Origin: a virus
Strand: one strand, 5' to 3'
Length of the DNA stretch: 27,570 nt
IMG/VR virus record: IMGVR_UViG_3300029309_000278
Coordinates: 1 to 27,570 of that record
A program made the position numbers and the translations under genes. Every line of letters starts with the position of its first letter. Position 1 is the stretch's first letter. The notes beneath the pieces were generated by a model that ran no database searches, was not told the DNA's origin, and worked only from the letters and a program-made list of their open reading frames with translations. Below, piece by piece: positions 10,285 to 16,853 of the stretch.

Positions 10285-11808
10285 ATGGCAGGAACTAGTA
10301 TTTATAGCGTCTATAGACGTACAGCAAGAGCAGCTGCAAAACAACAAGTAGTTAAAAAAACTTCTAATGTTGATGTAGAAAGAGCTAGAAAAGATTTTGC
10401 CTATTTTTGTGATGTTGTAGGGGGAAAACCACCTGCTAAGCATCATCGAGAATGGCATAAGTATTTATGTACTGGTGATGACAGTGTTTGTCTAAGAGGT
10501 ATAGCCGGACCTAATATTGATATCTTGGCTCCAAGAGGATCTGCAAAATCTACAGTTTTAGGTTTGTATACAGCATGGGCAATAGGTGTTCATGCAACAC
10601 AAAAATTACCTTTAAAAATTTTATATATTTCTTATACCGTTGATGTAGCTAGACCAAAGAGTGCAGCAATAAAAAGAATAATAGATGAAAGTAAAATCTA
10701 TAAAGAAATTTTTCCAAAAGTTAAGATTGCTAAGGGAATAAATTCAAATGAATATTGGAGTATAGATTGGAAATTTGCAGGAATAAAATCAACAGGTGAA
10801 GAAGAATTTAGCGTTTGTTGTGCAGGATTAAAAGGTGCTGTTACGTCCAAAAGATCACATCTTTGCATAATAGATGACGCAATAAAAAGTTCCGATGATA
10901 TTAAGAATAAAGATATTAGACAAGCAATGGAAGATAACTGGAATGCAGTTATTGTTCCTACGATGTTTGAAGGAGCTAGAGCTATTTGTTTAGGTACAAG
11001 ATTTCGACATGACGATATACACGCTAGAGCTTTCTTACCATCTAATGGTTGGAAGCAAATAGTACAATCTGCAATAACTGTAGATAAAGAAGGAGAGGAA
11101 ATATCGTATTGGCCTGATATGTGGAGTTTAGATTATTTAAAAGATAGAAGACGTATCGCTCCTGTTGCATTTAGTTTCCAATATCAAAACCAGATTGTAC
11201 AAACTAGTGAATTATCATTATCTCCAGACTTAATTGTTAAAGGAACTATTGCTACAGATTTTGATGCTTTAGGAGTTGGTGTTGATTTATCTGCTGGAAT
11301 TAGAGAAAGAAATGATTATACAGTTTTTGTTATGGGTGGAAGAGTAAAAGACAAGATTCATATTATTGATTGTAAGAGAGTAAGAGTTATGGGAAATATA
11401 GAAAAATTAGATCTTTTAATGGAAATGATGGAAGAATGGGGAGTTATTCACAGAGACGGTAAAAATTTATTTCCCACAGGAAGTTCATTGCATATTTGGT
11501 CTGAAGCAGTTGCATATCAAGCATCATTGGAAGCAGACTTTAAAAGAATATGTCAAACAGAACAAGGATTATATAATTTAATTTGGCATCCTGTCAAAGG
11601 ATTTCGCGGAGACAAAGTTGCTCGTTTTAGGGGGATTATGGGATTATTTGAGCAAAGAAAGATAATTTTTAATAAATATAGAAAATTTGGAGCTCTTACA
11701 GATGAGATAGTAAATTTTGGGGTTAGCTCACATGATGATTGCGTAGACGCTCTAGTTTGGCTATGTAATGGGTTAATGACTCGTGGAAAACTTGAGTTAG
11801 AGTATTGA
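10285..11808 (+). CDS. terL: Terminase large subunit
   Basis: This is the packaging motor: an ATPase that pumps DNA into the prohead and a nuclease that cuts the concatemer. In the 507-residue protein, Walker A is APRGSAKST (82-90) and Walker B is LCIIDD (193-198). The coupling motif is CLGTRF (235-240). The RNase H-like nuclease domain has GVDLS (Asp334), an acidic strand HIWSEAV (Glu406) and SSHDDCVDAL (Asp484/485, Asp488). Length and motif order are typical of complete TerL proteins. No good Shine-Dalgarno precedes the ATG at 10285; the next gene upstream ends 24 bases earlier and is the probable TerS. An earlier ATG at 10274 is out of frame. Which packaging type (cos, pac or direct repeat) applies cannot be told. 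Confidence 0.95.
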   Translation: MAGTSIYSVYRRTARAAAKQQVVKKTSNVDVERARKDFAYFCDVVGGKPPAKHHREWHKYLCTGDDSVCLRGIAGPNIDILAPRGSAKSTVLGLYTAWAIGVHATQKLPLKILYISYTVDVARPKSAAIKRIIDESKIYKEIFPKVKIAKGINSNEYWSIDWKFAGIKSTGEEEFSVCCAGLKGAVTSKRSHLCIIDDAIKSSDDIKNKDIRQAMEDNWNAVIVPTMFEGARAICLGTRFRHDDIHARAFLPSNGWKQIVQSAITVDKEGEEISYWPDMWSLDYLKDRRRIAPVAFSFQYQNQIVQTSELSLSPDLIVKGTIATDFDALGVGVDLSAGIRERNDYTVFVMGGRVKDKIHIIDCKRVRVMGNIEKLDLLMEMMEEWGVIHRDGKNLFPTGSSLHIWSEAVAYQASLEADFKRICQTEQGLYNLIWHPVKGFRGDKVARFRGIMGLFEQRKIIFNKYRKFGALTDEIVNFGVSSHDDCVDALVWLCNGLMTRGKLELEY

Positions 11809-12034: not shown

Positions 12035-14290
12035 ATGGCCGAGAGTAATAGTAAATCTGTTTTGGATGAAATGATTAAATCCGTCATAACTCGTGACGGA
12101 AAAGGATCGGCTGATACTATGTTGGTCAGTTCCCATTTATCCCAAATGAAGATGTTTGGAATAAGACAGGGAGTTGAGTTTTATCCACAACAAGATAATT
12201 TTGGAACACAAAGATTTGATTTTATTCAACAGGTCATAAAGTTCAATCAATTAGATGCAAGGTTAGATGCAATATGGGATAGATTTTTATCTTATGGAAA
12301 AGGTTTATTTTATATAAGACCAACAAAAAAATCTTACAGAATTTATTGGTTTAATAAAGATTCTTATAGGACATATTATTCTCCTGAAGGTGAATTAGAA
12401 GAAGTCATTATTATTTATCCCTACAAGGTAAGATCTTCGAAAGGTTTTGCAGGTGTCGGTTTAAATACTGATAAAAGATATATGAGATTAAAAATAACTG
12501 CTACTGAAATAGAAGAATATCATTCAGAACAAGAAATAACTTTTGAACAAGAAAATACAAATTTTGCAACTTTTGATAAAAAAATTGTAGAAAATACTAT
12601 GGAGTTTATTCCATGTGTTGAAGTATTTAATAATCCTGATGCTTTTGGAACTGATGGTTCAGGTGAGTTTGATTTTATAGCTAATCAGATTACTGCTCAT
12701 GATGAGATGGTAAAAAATATTAGAGCTAACTTATCATTCTTTGGTAATCCAACTCTTTTATCTTCTAGACCAAAACAAGACATTGTAGAAAGCGATTCTG
12801 AAACTGCACAAAGACCTAGTATATCTAGTCAATCAGGTTTCGGATCTAATCTTGATTTATTTGGCTCTACTTATAAACAAGATCCTATAACAAGAGCACA
12901 ACCCGGATATTCAGGTAGGCCAGGAAGTGGAATGAGAGTTCCCAGAGTTATTGCAAATTTAGAGCCATCTGATCGTGTTGGATTTATTACTCCTAATGCA
13001 GTTAGTTCTGATCAGGCAAGATTCGCTGAACAATTAAGAAGTGAAATTAGATTAGCTCTAGGGGGAATAGATGATCTAAGTATTACTAACGTAACGGCTA
13101 CAGAAATTAAATCTGCTTATGGCCGAGTTAGTGCTACTGCTAAAAAGAAATGTTTACAGATTTATCAATATGGAATTTGTAAATGTTTCGAATTAATTAT
13201 TTTCCAAGAAGAGCAAATTTTTAGAAAATCATTGGCATTTGCTTCAGGAATAGAATATCCAAAATTACCAGAAAATACGGAAGATCCAAAGGCATTTGAA
13301 AAGTATGAAAAACAAAAAATTAAATATGAACAAAAACTTCAGCAAGCTGTTGAAACCGCAGTAGAAACAAAAGAAATACCTGATGGTGTTTTAGGACTAG
13401 CTCCAGACGGAGATAGAACAGTTCTTTGGAGATGGATGGGACCTGTTTATGAAGATACAGCACAAGATAAACTCAATCAATCCATCTTTACTAGAAACCT
13501 TCAAGAATTGGGGGTTGATAGTATAGAAGCACTGAAGTACTTATTTCCTTCGAAAACTGATGACGAAATTGCAGGGATGCTTTCTGGTTATCCGTTTAGA
13601 ATGGTAGGTGAAGTACAAAGGGCATATTCCGCATTTATTGACTTAATAAATCAGGAAATGCGAACCCCACATCCTCAGCAGCCTAACTTACCGATGGCAG
13701 CTGATCCACGTTTGGATTTAACTCCATTCTTATATCGAACATTAGAGTCATTACAAAAAGAGGTAACTTATGCAGGACGCTACCGCTCAGCAGACCCAAT
13801 CAGCACCCCAAGTATCCCAGACCCAGCAGAGCAGCTACGTGGCTCCTCAGACAGCAGCCCAAGCTCCTTCCGTGGCAACTTCCCCACAATGGGTGAATCC
13901 ATCCCAACCAGCACAGGCCCCAGCCCCAGTGGCACAAGCCCAGATGGGGGTACAAGGAATCCAATACAACCCTACAGCGTACAGCCCCCAGCCACAGCAG
14001 GCAGCCCCACAAGCGGAGAACCCATACAAGGACGCATTCAACAGGGTAGTCGGGCTCCTGAGTTCACCAGTGCAGTTCCCATCCCTGGGTCAACAGTCAG
14101 TGGCGAATCCAGCAGCAGACCAGGCCAACTACGGATACCAACAAACAACCCCATACAACAATCCGGCTCAGCAGACTTATACGCCTTCGAACAACAACAG
14201 CCAGGCATACTCCAACAATTATTCCCAAACTTCTCAGGAGATAACACAAGACCAGCTCCTAGCAAACGGGGTAAGCGAGGCAAGTCTTGA
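12035..14290 (+). CDS. Portal protein with overprinted C-terminal tail
   Basis: This is the head-vertex dodecamer through which DNA enters and leaves. The 751-residue frame has portal-like features: an N-terminal alpha/beta region (RFDFIQQVIKFNQLDARLDA, FLSYGKGLFYIRP), a wing with Tyr-rich strands, and a long stem/crown region (NITAHDEM-like helix near 215-235; TATEIKSAYGRVSATAKKKC near 362-381). Assignment also rests on its place after terL and before the scaffold and capsid genes. Residues 1 to about 578 look like a complete portal. The remaining 173 residues (Ser/Pro/Gly-rich, ending in the basic SKRGKRGKS) are coded in a +1-shifted overlap with the next gene. The tail is probably disordered. 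AGAGGT with spacing 9-10 precedes the start. Confidence 0.82.
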   Translation: MAESNSKSVLDEMIKSVITRDGKGSADTMLVSSHLSQMKMFGIRQGVEFYPQQDNFGTQRFDFIQQVIKFNQLDARLDAIWDRFLSYGKGLFYIRPTKKSYRIYWFNKDSYRTYYSPEGELEEVIIIYPYKVRSSKGFAGVGLNTDKRYMRLKITATEIEEYHSEQEITFEQENTNFATFDKKIVENTMEFIPCVEVFNNPDAFGTDGSGEFDFIANQITAHDEMVKNIRANLSFFGNPTLLSSRPKQDIVESDSETAQRPSISSQSGFGSNLDLFGSTYKQDPITRAQPGYSGRPGSGMRVPRVIANLEPSDRVGFITPNAVSSDQARFAEQLRSEIRLALGGIDDLSITNVTATEIKSAYGRVSATAKKKCLQIYQYGICKCFELIIFQEEQIFRKSLAFASGIEYPKLPENTEDPKAFEKYEKQKIKYEQKLQQAVETAVETKEIPDGVLGLAPDGDRTVLWRWMGPVYEDTAQDKLNQSIFTRNLQELGVDSIEALKYLFPSKTDDEIAGMLSGYPFRMVGEVQRAYSAFIDLINQEMRTPHPQQPNLPMAADPRLDLTPFLYRTLESLQKEVTYAGRYRSADPISTPSIPDPAEQLRGSSDSSPSSFRGNFPTMGESIPTSTGPSPSGTSPDGGTRNPIQPYSVQPPATAGSPTSGEPIQGRIQQGSRAPEFTSAVPIPGSTVSGESSSRPGQLRIPTNNPIQQSGSADLYAFEQQQPGILQQLFPNFSGDNTRPAPSKRGKRGKS

Positions 14291-14780
14291 AGTAATTAAT
14301 CATTTTGGTGCAGATGCTCCAGCAGTGCTTAATAACTATGCCTGTCAGCTAGAAGATTCACTTATAACAACAAATACTCAATTACAAGAGGCAGTTAATC
14401 TTCTACAAGAAATGTCAACAGAGCATAAAGCTTATGAGACAATTCTTACAGATCCAGATGTTTTAGCTGACTATACATGTGAGTTCTTCGGAGAGAATGG
14501 ACCATATCCAGTAGAGGATGATGCTCCAGCATATCCACAAGCTCCTACATTTGCAGGACAACAGCTACCTAACCCAGCTGCTGCACAAGCTCAGCCACAG
14601 GCTCCAGCAAGACCTCAGATGCCTGTTCCTCCACAGCCACAAGCTCCAGCAAATTCACAAGATTTCTGGAAAGACTTTGGTGGAGCAGCCGATAGAGATC
14701 CACAAAATGCATGGAGATACTTGAATGCTGCACAGCAGAATCCACAAGTATTCCGTGAGAAACTTCTGGTAATGGAATAA
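13770..14780 (+). CDS. Candidate scaffolding protein (336 aa), overlapping the portal gene
   Basis: The start at 13770 follows AGAGGTAACTT, a good ribosome binding site inside the portal gene. The first 173 residues overlap the portal frame. They are Gln/Pro/Ala-rich and probably unstructured, apart from a short segment (NPYKDAFNRVVGLLSS). The non-overlapping part has a coiled-coil helix (NNYACQLEDSLITTNTQLQE, then AVNLLQEMSTEHKAYETIL, about residues 189-226), an acidic segment, a second Pro/Gln-rich linker and a terminal helical domain (SQDFWKDFGGAADRDPQNAW to the end). The gene order portal - this gene - capsid, the coiled coil and the disorder all fit a scaffolding protein. Pro/Gln-rich linkers on both sides of the overlap end suggest that this frame is the original one. 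No sequence family is recognised. Confidence 0.75.
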   Translation: MQDATAQQTQSAPQVSQTQQSSYVAPQTAAQAPSVATSPQWVNPSQPAQAPAPVAQAQMGVQGIQYNPTAYSPQPQQAAPQAENPYKDAFNRVVGLLSSPVQFPSLGQQSVANPAADQANYGYQQTTPYNNPAQQTYTPSNNNSQAYSNNYSQTSQEITQDQLLANGVSEASLEVINHFGADAPAVLNNYACQLEDSLITTNTQLQEAVNLLQEMSTEHKAYETILTDPDVLADYTCEFFGENGPYPVEDDAPAYPQAPTFAGQQLPNPAAAQAQPQAPARPQMPVPPQPQAPANSQDFWKDFGGAADRDPQNAWRYLNAAQQNPQVFREKLLVME

Positions 14781-14938
14781 TGGGTGGAAGAATGGCAGGA
14801 ATGGCATTAGATGATTTTCTAATGCCTTTTGCTGCAATGATTACAACTCAGCAATTAATGAATGCTAAAAAGCTTAAAGATCAAGAAAAAGCTTTAGCTC
14901 AAATGGGTGTTCCTTACAATCCTCTTTTAATGAGATAA
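14780..14938 (+). CDS. Small Met-rich protein (52 aa)
   Basis: The stop of the scaffold candidate and this ATG overlap as TAATG. The frame encodes 52 residues beginning MGGRMAGMALDDFLMPFAAM and ending VPYNPLLMR. It is Met-rich (nine Met), with an amphipathic or weakly hydrophobic N-terminal helix followed by a basic helix (NAKKLKDQEKALAQ). It ends one base before the next gene. The fit without gaps and codon use like its neighbours support a real gene. Function is unknown; a minor head protein or small membrane-associated factor is possible. Confidence 0.65.
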   Translation: MGGRMAGMALDDFLMPFAAMITTQQLMNAKKLKDQEKALAQMGVPYNPLLMR

Positions 14939-14939
14939 C

Positions 14940-15371
14940 ATGAAACACAAAAAAAAAGCCAGCACTACGGAAAAAGCAGATAAATTTTTACAAGGAATAG
15001 GAACTGCTGGTGGACCTATAGGTTCTCCTCAGTTAGTTGGATTTGGTGGTACTGACACCATGAATCAATTAGCAGCTGGCAATAGAGATGAATATGCAAA
15101 TATAAGAATGCGTGAAGGTGATACAAGAATTGTAGAGGGTGCAAAAATGCCTTCTGATTTAGATGCTTCATATTTAAAACTTAATTTGCCGGGTTCTCCT
15201 TTACCTGCAAATGGTTTATTAGCTCCACAAAATTTAAGAGCTGCAGAACAAAATCAAGATTTTATTAGAAGTCAAGAGCAGATGTTCTTAGCACAATACC
15301 TTCCAGCAGCTGGATTATCTCAGTTACCTGTAGGTCAGCCTGCTTTAGAATCAAAGAAAGGTAAAAAGTAA
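14940..15371 (+). CDS. Hypothetical head-region protein (143 aa)
   Basis: The 143-residue protein starts with a basic tail (MKHKKKASTTEKADKFLQG), continues with a Gly/Pro-rich part and ends in a Gln/Leu-rich helix (FIRSQEQMFLAQYLPAAGLS) and a Lys tail (KKGKK). It has no membrane segment or catalytic motif. It abuts the next gene with no intervening base, and that gene also begins M-K-H-basic. Its position between scaffold and capsid suggests a minor capsid component, but I recognise no family. Confidence 0.68.
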   Translation: MKHKKKASTTEKADKFLQGIGTAGGPIGSPQLVGFGGTDTMNQLAAGNRDEYANIRMREGDTRIVEGAKMPSDLDASYLKLNLPGSPLPANGLLAPQNLRAAEQNQDFIRSQEQMFLAQYLPAAGLSQLPVGQPALESKKGKK

Positions 15372-15707: not shown

Positions 15708-16853
15708 ATGTTTATAGATAACGATTTTCCGAAGCTGCTGGGTGCCGAGTTATATAGACCACATCCTGCGTATATCGTAGAAATGGCAACAGAGCCAGTG
15801 GTTGTACATGACTTCACCAAGCAGCCAGGTCAGACCGTTCAGTTAGACCGCTACCGTTTCTTTGGCAATCCTGGAACTAAGACCTCTAGAGAGAGGACTC
15901 AAGACCAGACCATTGGAACAGCTAACAGCAGATCTATCGTAAAGGACAAAGTACTTGTATCTCTTAGAGAGTATACAGGTCCAGCTGACCCTAACAACAC
16001 ATCTCTTCCTAGCACATTCAAAATTGCTAGAGAAACCCTAATGACAGCTCAGCGTTTGCTGCTTGATACTGGGAACTTAAATATGTTCCACCAGTCAATT
16101 GGCTCACTGACTTTATTAGATGACTATAGAAGATGGAGAGATCGTGTATTCCTCGATGAACTATTCAAGTCTGAATCTCGTGGTGCTGCCTCTGATACTC
16201 AGGGTGGACATTACTATCCAAATGGTAAGACAAAGTCTAGCTCTACTGCATTGAATGCTTACAGTGCTACAGAATTTGCTTCTGAGCGTTTTAAGTTCAA
16301 TGTAAAAACTGACCTTCTTGAGGTAGTTAAGAGTTTAAGAAAGCGTCACGTACCAGTTTTCGCAGACGGATATTATCGTTGTATAGCAGATCCTTCATTC
16401 ATGAAAGATCTAAGAGCCGATCAAGGCTTCCGTGAAGTAGCAAGATATCCAGGAATGGGACAAGGTAACCCTCTAATGGGTGCAATGGGTCCTAACCAAG
16501 CACTCTATGCTGGTGGACAGTATGGACAAGCTCAGTTCGTAGCTGGTGAGCCAGTTATGCCTTCTGGATTCGTGTTTGAAGGAGTAAGATTCTTTGAGTC
16601 TACAAACTTCCCTGCCAAAGAAATTTCGGTCGATATTGGTAACGGTGCAGGTGCTTCTACAAGGACAACTCCAGCAGGATTGTTCTTTGGCCCACAAGCA
16701 ATTGGTGTTGGTATTGGTGGTCCTAATGCTCAAGTTTTAATTAACAATAATGATGATTTCTCAAGATTCATTATCCTTATATGGCAGCTTTATGCTGGTT
16801 TTGCGAACTTGAATAAGGACTTCATTACCACTGCCTTCACAATTACAGAGTAA
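15708..16853 (+). CDS. Major capsid protein (N4-gp56-like)
   Basis: The 381-residue protein forms the icosahedral shell. Position (scaffold candidate upstream, expressed with its own leader) and composition support this. Codon use is less AT-biased than in neighbours, as is usual for an abundant protein. Features resembling the N4-gp56-type capsid family are a central block KKRHVPVF-like 'RKRHVPVFADGYYRCIADPS' (211-230), directly followed by a D-L-R-x-D motif (FMKDLRADQGFREVARY), and later GFVFEGVRFFES, matching the family's 'G..G.RF.E'. The N-terminal 60 residues (YIVEMATEPVVVHDF, then DRYRFFGNPG) are also typical. Family name is from pattern memory; capsid role is more secure than family. 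Confidence 0.85.
   Translation: MFIDNDFPKLLGAELYRPHPAYIVEMATEPVVVHDFTKQPGQTVQLDRYRFFGNPGTKTSRERTQDQTIGTANSRSIVKDKVLVSLREYTGPADPNNTSLPSTFKIARETLMTAQRLLLDTGNLNMFHQSIGSLTLLDDYRRWRDRVFLDELFKSESRGAASDTQGGHYYPNGKTKSSSTALNAYSATEFASERFKFNVKTDLLEVVKSLRKRHVPVFADGYYRCIADPSFMKDLRADQGFREVARYPGMGQGNPLMGAMGPNQALYAGGQYGQAQFVAGEPVMPSGFVFEGVRFFESTNFPAKEISVDIGNGAGASTRTTPAGLFFGPQAIGVGIGGPNAQVLINNNDDFSRFIILIWQLYAGFANLNKDFITTAFTITE

Follow-up and report, generated by a model that had tools for sequence, protein, structure and literature searches.

The window analysed here, meaning the whole stretch of 27,570 bases of an IMG/VR virus record (IMGVR_UViG_3300029309_000278, positions 1 to 27,570), carries a head module in the usual gene order, in which the terminase is followed by the portal, the inner gene and the major head protein. 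The terminase large subunit (10285-11808, + strand) matches phrog_38 with E 1.7e-78, and the major head protein (15708-16853, +) matches phrog_1357 with E 1.7e-16. The portal gene (12035-14290, +) lies between the terminase and the scaffold/capsid genes and encodes 751 aa, with a folded core at about residues 1-578 and a tail at residues 579-751. Its product matches phrog_20475, a family of head and packaging, virion structural proteins (E 3e-213), and shows weak matches to the PHROG portal families (E 0.12-0.5). The structure model of this protein is poor (pLDDT 40), but the PDB entries that it hits significantly are those of phage portals or of portal-tail complexes (P-SCSP1u, SaPI1/80alpha, T7 and others), so that on the strength of modelling a portal is the likely identification. 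The gene that follows, here called the inner gene (13770-14780, +), encodes 336 aa and lies between the portal and major capsid protein genes. Its product has no Pfam or PHROG match and no match to a scaffold family, and searches of PDB sequences, Pfam and Rfam returned nothing useful; since position is the basis of the assignment, we call it a probable scaffold protein. The predicted fold suits this role, being, at low confidence, disordered to about residue 158 except for one helix and helical thereafter. Beyond the inner gene, a 52-codon ORF (14780-14938) overlaps its stop codon (TAATG) and fills the gap before the next gene (14940-15371), whose protein has a basic C-terminal run, ESKKGKK, resembling the SKRGKRGKS of the window's portal.

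The inner gene begins inside the portal gene at an offset of 1735, that is, in the +1 frame, and the two genes share 521 nt inclusive (13770-14290, +), exactly the out-of-frame overlap described in the initial annotation. The other observations made there on the bare sequence were also accurate: TGA at 13894-13896 does belong to the third frame, which has 6 stops in the window overlap, and a recount reproduced the hand counts of G and C (34 of 60 bases at 13921-13980 and 21 of 60 at 14341-14400). A sequencing frameshift near 13770, named there as a possible refutation, is ruled out because hundreds of contigs agree, and for the same reason an assembly frameshift was rejected as the origin of the overlap.

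A search of 50,697 phage records gave significant matches to the portal and the inner protein in Synechococcus phage S-EIV1 alone. Its homologous genes stand in the same order as those of the window, with identities of 53% for the portal, 41% for the inner protein (taking the full-length homologue), 62-67% for the terminase and 71% for the capsid protein, and its portal and inner genes overlap by 554 nt. Scans of viral contigs and GTDB genome contigs then yielded hundreds of relatives. In the first sets (IMG/VR plus S-EIV1), a +1 overlap of 464-638 nt is kept in 124 of 126 complete loci, the two exceptions being lesions confined to single contigs. An extended set holds 213 complete loci with overlaps >400 nt, representing 186 distinct sequences; since this count was filtered on overlap, the fair statement of conservation is the list of exceptions, which comprises a nonsense point mutation of the portal core upstream of the inner start (L018), a 134-nt deletion within the overlap (L017/L200, one contig), a break upstream, in the portal core (L172), and a contig that ends a few bases past its stop (L245).

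More distant relatives carry the same arrangement. A tblastn match to a megaplasmid of the cyanobacterium Kovacikia minuta revealed a phage-like terminase-portal-scaffold-capsid block, the portal of which is about 34-36% identical to that of the window. Together with six IMG/VR relatives this locus makes up a third clade, in which the +1 overlaps measure 521-575 nt and the portal cores are about 34-39% identical to the window's. In a fourth group of three loci (L293-L295; portal about 32-33% identical), the inner gene starts further 3', the +1 overlap is shorter (272-395 nt), and the portal tails are shorter too. The open portal frame of L293, where the start codon is uncertain, has a probability of 0.55 of arising by chance on its own; those of L294 and L295 exceed what chance would give. 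The search of relatives turned up no outgroup in which homologous portal and scaffold genes are free of overlap. These viruses of cyanobacteria form a large lineage, mostly uncultured, and the comparisons indicate that selection maintains the overlap across members only about one third identical in sequence.

Two of the loci show further features. The 1.2-Mb K. minuta 'plasmid' with the S-EIV1-related block (L283; NZ_CP083583.1 703587-728222) is perhaps a prophage or a phage-plasmid, and has an HNH-like ORF downstream of its capsid gene. In another locus (L284, 5999-6860), an HNH-endonuclease-like ORF has the intact portal gene on one side and a partial copy of the portal 5' end, 34 codons long, on the other, which looks like the insertion of a mobile endonuclease gene with duplication of its target.

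The inner start signal, AAAAGAGGTAACTTATG (13754-13772, +), is written within portal codons for Gln-Lys-Glu-Val-Thr-Tyr. In the window, a GAGG Shine-Dalgarno sequence stands 6 nt upstream of the inner ATG, which is itself embedded in the portal codons x-Tyr-Ala (T-ATG), and a TAA (13764-13766, +) closes the inner frame one codon 5' of this ATG; the inner frame is likewise closed immediately upstream of the ATG in nearly all loci. The ribosome binding site that had been assigned to the inner gene is thus correct, and it is conserved in relatives. At the 186 distinct loci, the portal Tyr codon at the inner start is always TAT (63% elsewhere), and the Glu codon carrying the Shine-Dalgarno sequence is GAG in 171 (31% elsewhere). 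The inner start falls within invariant portal codons. With TAA at 13764-13766 shutting the inner frame, this start is independent and needs no frameshift upstream of it.

The public record of S-EIV1 gives a different picture of the inner gene. The GenBank protein AHV82225.1 (KJ410740.1 59863-60264; 8318-8719 in our locus L081) begins only past the portal stop, so the first half of the inner protein is unannotated in this phage. The conserved inner ORF starts at 59287, within the portal gene, and AHV82225.1 is a shortened form of it. Two other genes of this phage deserve mention. The S-EIV1 major capsid gene (L081 9239-10465; KJ410740.1 60784-62010) looks misannotated: the full capsid frame runs at about L081 9314-10465 and is 71% identical to the window's capsid protein, and in the record an antisense CDS (AHV82227.1) is annotated across the first half of the capsid frame, with AHV82228.1 covering the C-terminal part only. 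The S-EIV1 gene for the terminase large subunit (L081 2535-5075) has about 330 extra codons mid-gene, between positions corresponding to residues ~194-200 of the window terminase, possibly an intein or another insertion.

The initial annotation had proposed estimating dN/dS in both frames, and this check was run. Substitutions were classed by their effect on the portal and the inner frame in an OLGenie-like count that is not the published program, with selection estimated from disjoint pairs at kappa 1-4; all-pairs estimates were also computed. Purifying selection was found in both frames. Portal-frame dNN/dSN was 0.43-0.61 in the clade resembling the window and 0.56-0.76 in the S-EIV1 clade, with all intervals <1, compared with 1.2-2.2 (up to 2.3 over all estimates) in controls having the same frame relation in single-coded, non-gene frames. 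Inner-frame dNN/dNS within the overlap was 0.27-0.43, and 0.27-0.49 over all estimates. In the portal frame, constraint is strongest at the tail start and in RPGQLR...SADL...QPGILQQLFPN, and in the inner frame it is strongest in an AFNxVVxLLSxPVQ block. Constraint is thus divided between the frames by blocks, but incompletely, as the identities of the two frames, taken column by column, correlate positively.

Chance was assessed by resampling synonymous codons for the inner protein under the codon usage of the phage in question. For the window overlap this gave a mean of 13.6 portal-frame stops, with no sample open; across the 124 loci the mean was 10.3 and the frame was never open, as compared with an observed count of 0 stops in 124/124. 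Even when each sequence's own codons were shuffled, 3.6 stops still arose and 2.3% of sequences stayed open. As had been supposed from the window, openness of the portal frame is not automatic, the third frame being closed in 124/124 loci, and the frequent portal-frame stops in homologues that would have spoken against coding occur in none of them. These sequence comparisons consistently indicate real dual coding, neither chance nor assembly error.

Codon choice in the inner gene bears the mark of the second frame. T-ending inner codons before AA, AG or GA number 0 of 2542 in the overlap and make up 45-50% elsewhere in the same genes, in line with the earlier expectation that C-ended codons are imposed by the portal frame, and T endings also fall from 0.50 to 0.20 at inner codons where no stop could arise. 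In the window, the shift is confined to the overlap, again as claimed: third positions of the inner frame are T 0.13 and C 0.30 within it, and T 0.37 and C 0.07 after the portal stop. GC content in the window rises from 0.26-0.40 upstream to 0.51-0.61 in the overlap and falls to 0.36-0.50 downstream of it, and this GC-rich patch results from the double coding constraint, under which T-ending inner codons are excluded or reduced. Stop avoidance proved insufficient as the sole cause, since with it the GC expected rises from 0.503 to no more than 0.517, while 0.598 is observed; it is joined by constraint on the amino acids of the portal frame. RNA structure is unsupported as a reason for the conservation (z +1.06).

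The tail of the portal holds several short motifs. One of the SPIPxPGxTV type, PEFTSAVPIPGSTV (14057-14098, +), gives a profile match across clades, and the block from RPGQLR to SADLYAFEQQQPGILQQLFPN (14117-14230, +) has near-invariant residues and the strongest late portal-frame constraint (dNN/dSN 0.33-0.58 by blocks); PIPVPG and SQPGILAQLFPN are among the stretches of tail sequence. The basic end SKRGKRGKS (14261-14287, +), which the initial annotation had singled out, does not hold up as a feature: relatives lack it or have it altered, and in the S-EIV1 clade the extreme portal C-terminus is free of portal-frame purifying selection. The freshwater extension at the C-terminus of the tail likewise lacks portal-frame constraint. 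In view of the known place of portal C-termini and of its short motifs, the tail may serve as a flexible portal arm inside the head. In the inner frame, the block ENPYKDAFNRVVGLLSSPVQFP (14016-14081, +), a predicted helix (residues 85-98 in the model of the inner protein), is under the strongest constraint, with dNN/dNS 0.13-0.27.

Taken with the predicted proteins, these data make it very probable that the 521 nt are translated in both frames, to give a long-tailed portal and an independently started protein at the scaffold position. One could suppose instead that the scaffold frame alone matters and that the portal simply reads through to the next stop, its tail being tolerated junk. Disorder of the tail and variability of its extreme C-terminus would fit, but portal-frame dNN/dSN lies well below 1 and below the controls, portal-frame stops are completely absent, inner codon choice is shifted even where no stop is possible, and a tail motif is common to different clades, all of which makes this proposal highly improbable. 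The converse, that only the portal frame matters in the overlap and that the inner protein starts past the portal stop, is what the public S-EIV1 annotation of AHV82225.1 implies; it is scarcely credible given the strong, conserved Shine-Dalgarno sequence and ATG at 13770, the inner-frame purifying selection within the overlap and the conserved helix block that lies inside it. Finally, the phase is +1 at every locus, as a programmed +1 frameshift would require if it joined portal and scaffold in a fusion that replaced or accompanied the two separate proteins. Such an event would be marked by an open downstream frame lacking an independent start, but here the inner gene has its own conserved ribosome binding site and the inner frame is shut right before the ATG in nearly all loci. 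The conserved embedded start and the stop just upstream therefore favour independent initiation, and nothing indicates a shift 3' of the ATG, the one place left for it, so we consider frameshifting extremely unlikely.

The initial annotation had taken the portal tail to be new, overprinted sequence, reasoning that a portal of about 578 residues would be complete. The premise is sound, as 536 aa suffice for T7 gp8 and 522 aa for P-SSP7 gp8; the age assigned to the tail is not borne out. Codon usage is equally atypical in both frames and favours neither as the older, and every clade found has the overlap. In profile comparisons the portal tail matched third-clade tails through the SPIPxPGxTV motif (hhalign E 1.7e-5, probability 78%), the scaffold N-terminus gave no significant match to the third clade (E 0.58), and swapped-frame comparisons across clades gave nothing, so the sole significant cross-clade match is in the frame that was supposed to be the newer.

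We give an even chance to an origin in which the portal gene, its stop lost, was extended into a scaffold gene already present. The best matches by structure, the T7-like portals, have the lengths just given and overlap their scaffold genes by no more than 1 nt, the start of the tail coincides with that of the inner gene, and the Gln/Pro/Ala-rich style of the inner protein extends beyond the overlap; yet codon usage does not mark the portal frame as younger, cross-clade matching is better for the tail motif than for the scaffold arm, and the overlap is present in every clade found. Somewhat short of an even chance is the opposite course, in which a start codon arose in the 3' end of an already long-tailed portal gene and the scaffold N-terminal arm is new. 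This would account for a portal-tail motif recognisable across clades where the scaffold N-terminus is not, and for the later inner start and shorter overlap of the fourth clade, but the tails of that clade are shorter as well, T7-like portals have no such tail, and an inner helix block is present at the corresponding place in the third clade.

Returning to the preferred reading of two independently initiated products, the head-module message would be read from 12035 to give the 751-aa portal, the last ~173 residues of which would form a disordered Pro/Ser/Gly-rich tail with short conserved motifs. Ribosomes would also initiate independently at 13770, on the Shine-Dalgarno sequence and ATG written in portal codons, to give the 336-aa scaffold-position protein, in whose first half a disordered arm rich in Gln, Ala and Pro is predicted, with a single conserved helix. 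Selection acts on both products, with the load partly split along the DNA, such that a critical motif in one protein tends to face a tolerant linker in the other; inner T-ending codons are barred where a portal stop would arise and reduced elsewhere, leaving the GC-rich patch. Computation shows the overlap with its conservation, the constraint on the two frames, the embedded start and the suppression of codons; from these we infer that both proteins are produced as predicted and that the inner one is the scaffold. That a portal arm inside the procapsid contacts the scaffold, the shell or internal proteins is a guess, and one rather more apt to be wrong than right.

In tailed phages, lysis genes are the best-known case of long out-of-frame overlaps. 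In lambda Rz/Rz1, two products of one process are encoded in a +1 overlap with complementary sensitive and silent segments in the two frames (PMC5295617, PMC6139136). Like the overlapped P2-type spanins, this is a +1 overlap of a tailed phage whose products serve one process, and it offers the nearest working parallel. It differs in that lysis genes are involved and the short gene is fully nested, whereas here head genes overlap end to start by >500 nt; spanins also exist as separate genes, while no separated form was found in this lineage. The order portal, scaffold, capsid is shared with T7 genes 8 and 9 and P-SSP7 gp8 and gp9, the portal fold being recognised by structure search, but these portals are tailless, unlike the window's, and the genes lie about 100 nt apart in T7 and overlap by 1 nt in P-SSP7. 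The head genes of S-EIV1 have the arrangement of the window, with the inner gene's first half left out of the annotation. In the nested protease and scaffold genes C and Nu3 of lambda, the scaffold start lies inside an upstream head gene in frame, so that both products share one sequence, unlike the pair described here, which is read in different frames. Overlapping genes of the phiX174 type are the classic case of dual coding, terminal overlaps included (PMC8227390), but phiX174 is a small ssDNA phage, and the present lineage is one of tailed dsDNA phages (S-EIV1, 79 kb) that would seem to have little need to compress their genomes. Among the open-access papers searched, none was found to describe dual coding of portal and scaffold in an overlap.

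Here, then, two head genes share >500 nt across a large environmental lineage in which portal cores fall to about 34% identity, and in the only isolate found the first half of the inner gene is missing from the GenBank annotation. Overlap-averse gene callers can truncate head genes in this group. The hundreds of genomes constitute a naturally replicated data set on how selection splits one DNA between two disordered proteins, and the finding points to an undescribed portal tail. As a tentative reading, with the balance of probability against it, the overlap may be an ancient, lineage-defining dual-coding lock of portal and scaffold, with interlocking disordered arms and the Pro-rich tail as a new element of the portal vertex. 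If this is true, the two arms would act in the same assembly step, and each protein would constrain the evolution of the other.
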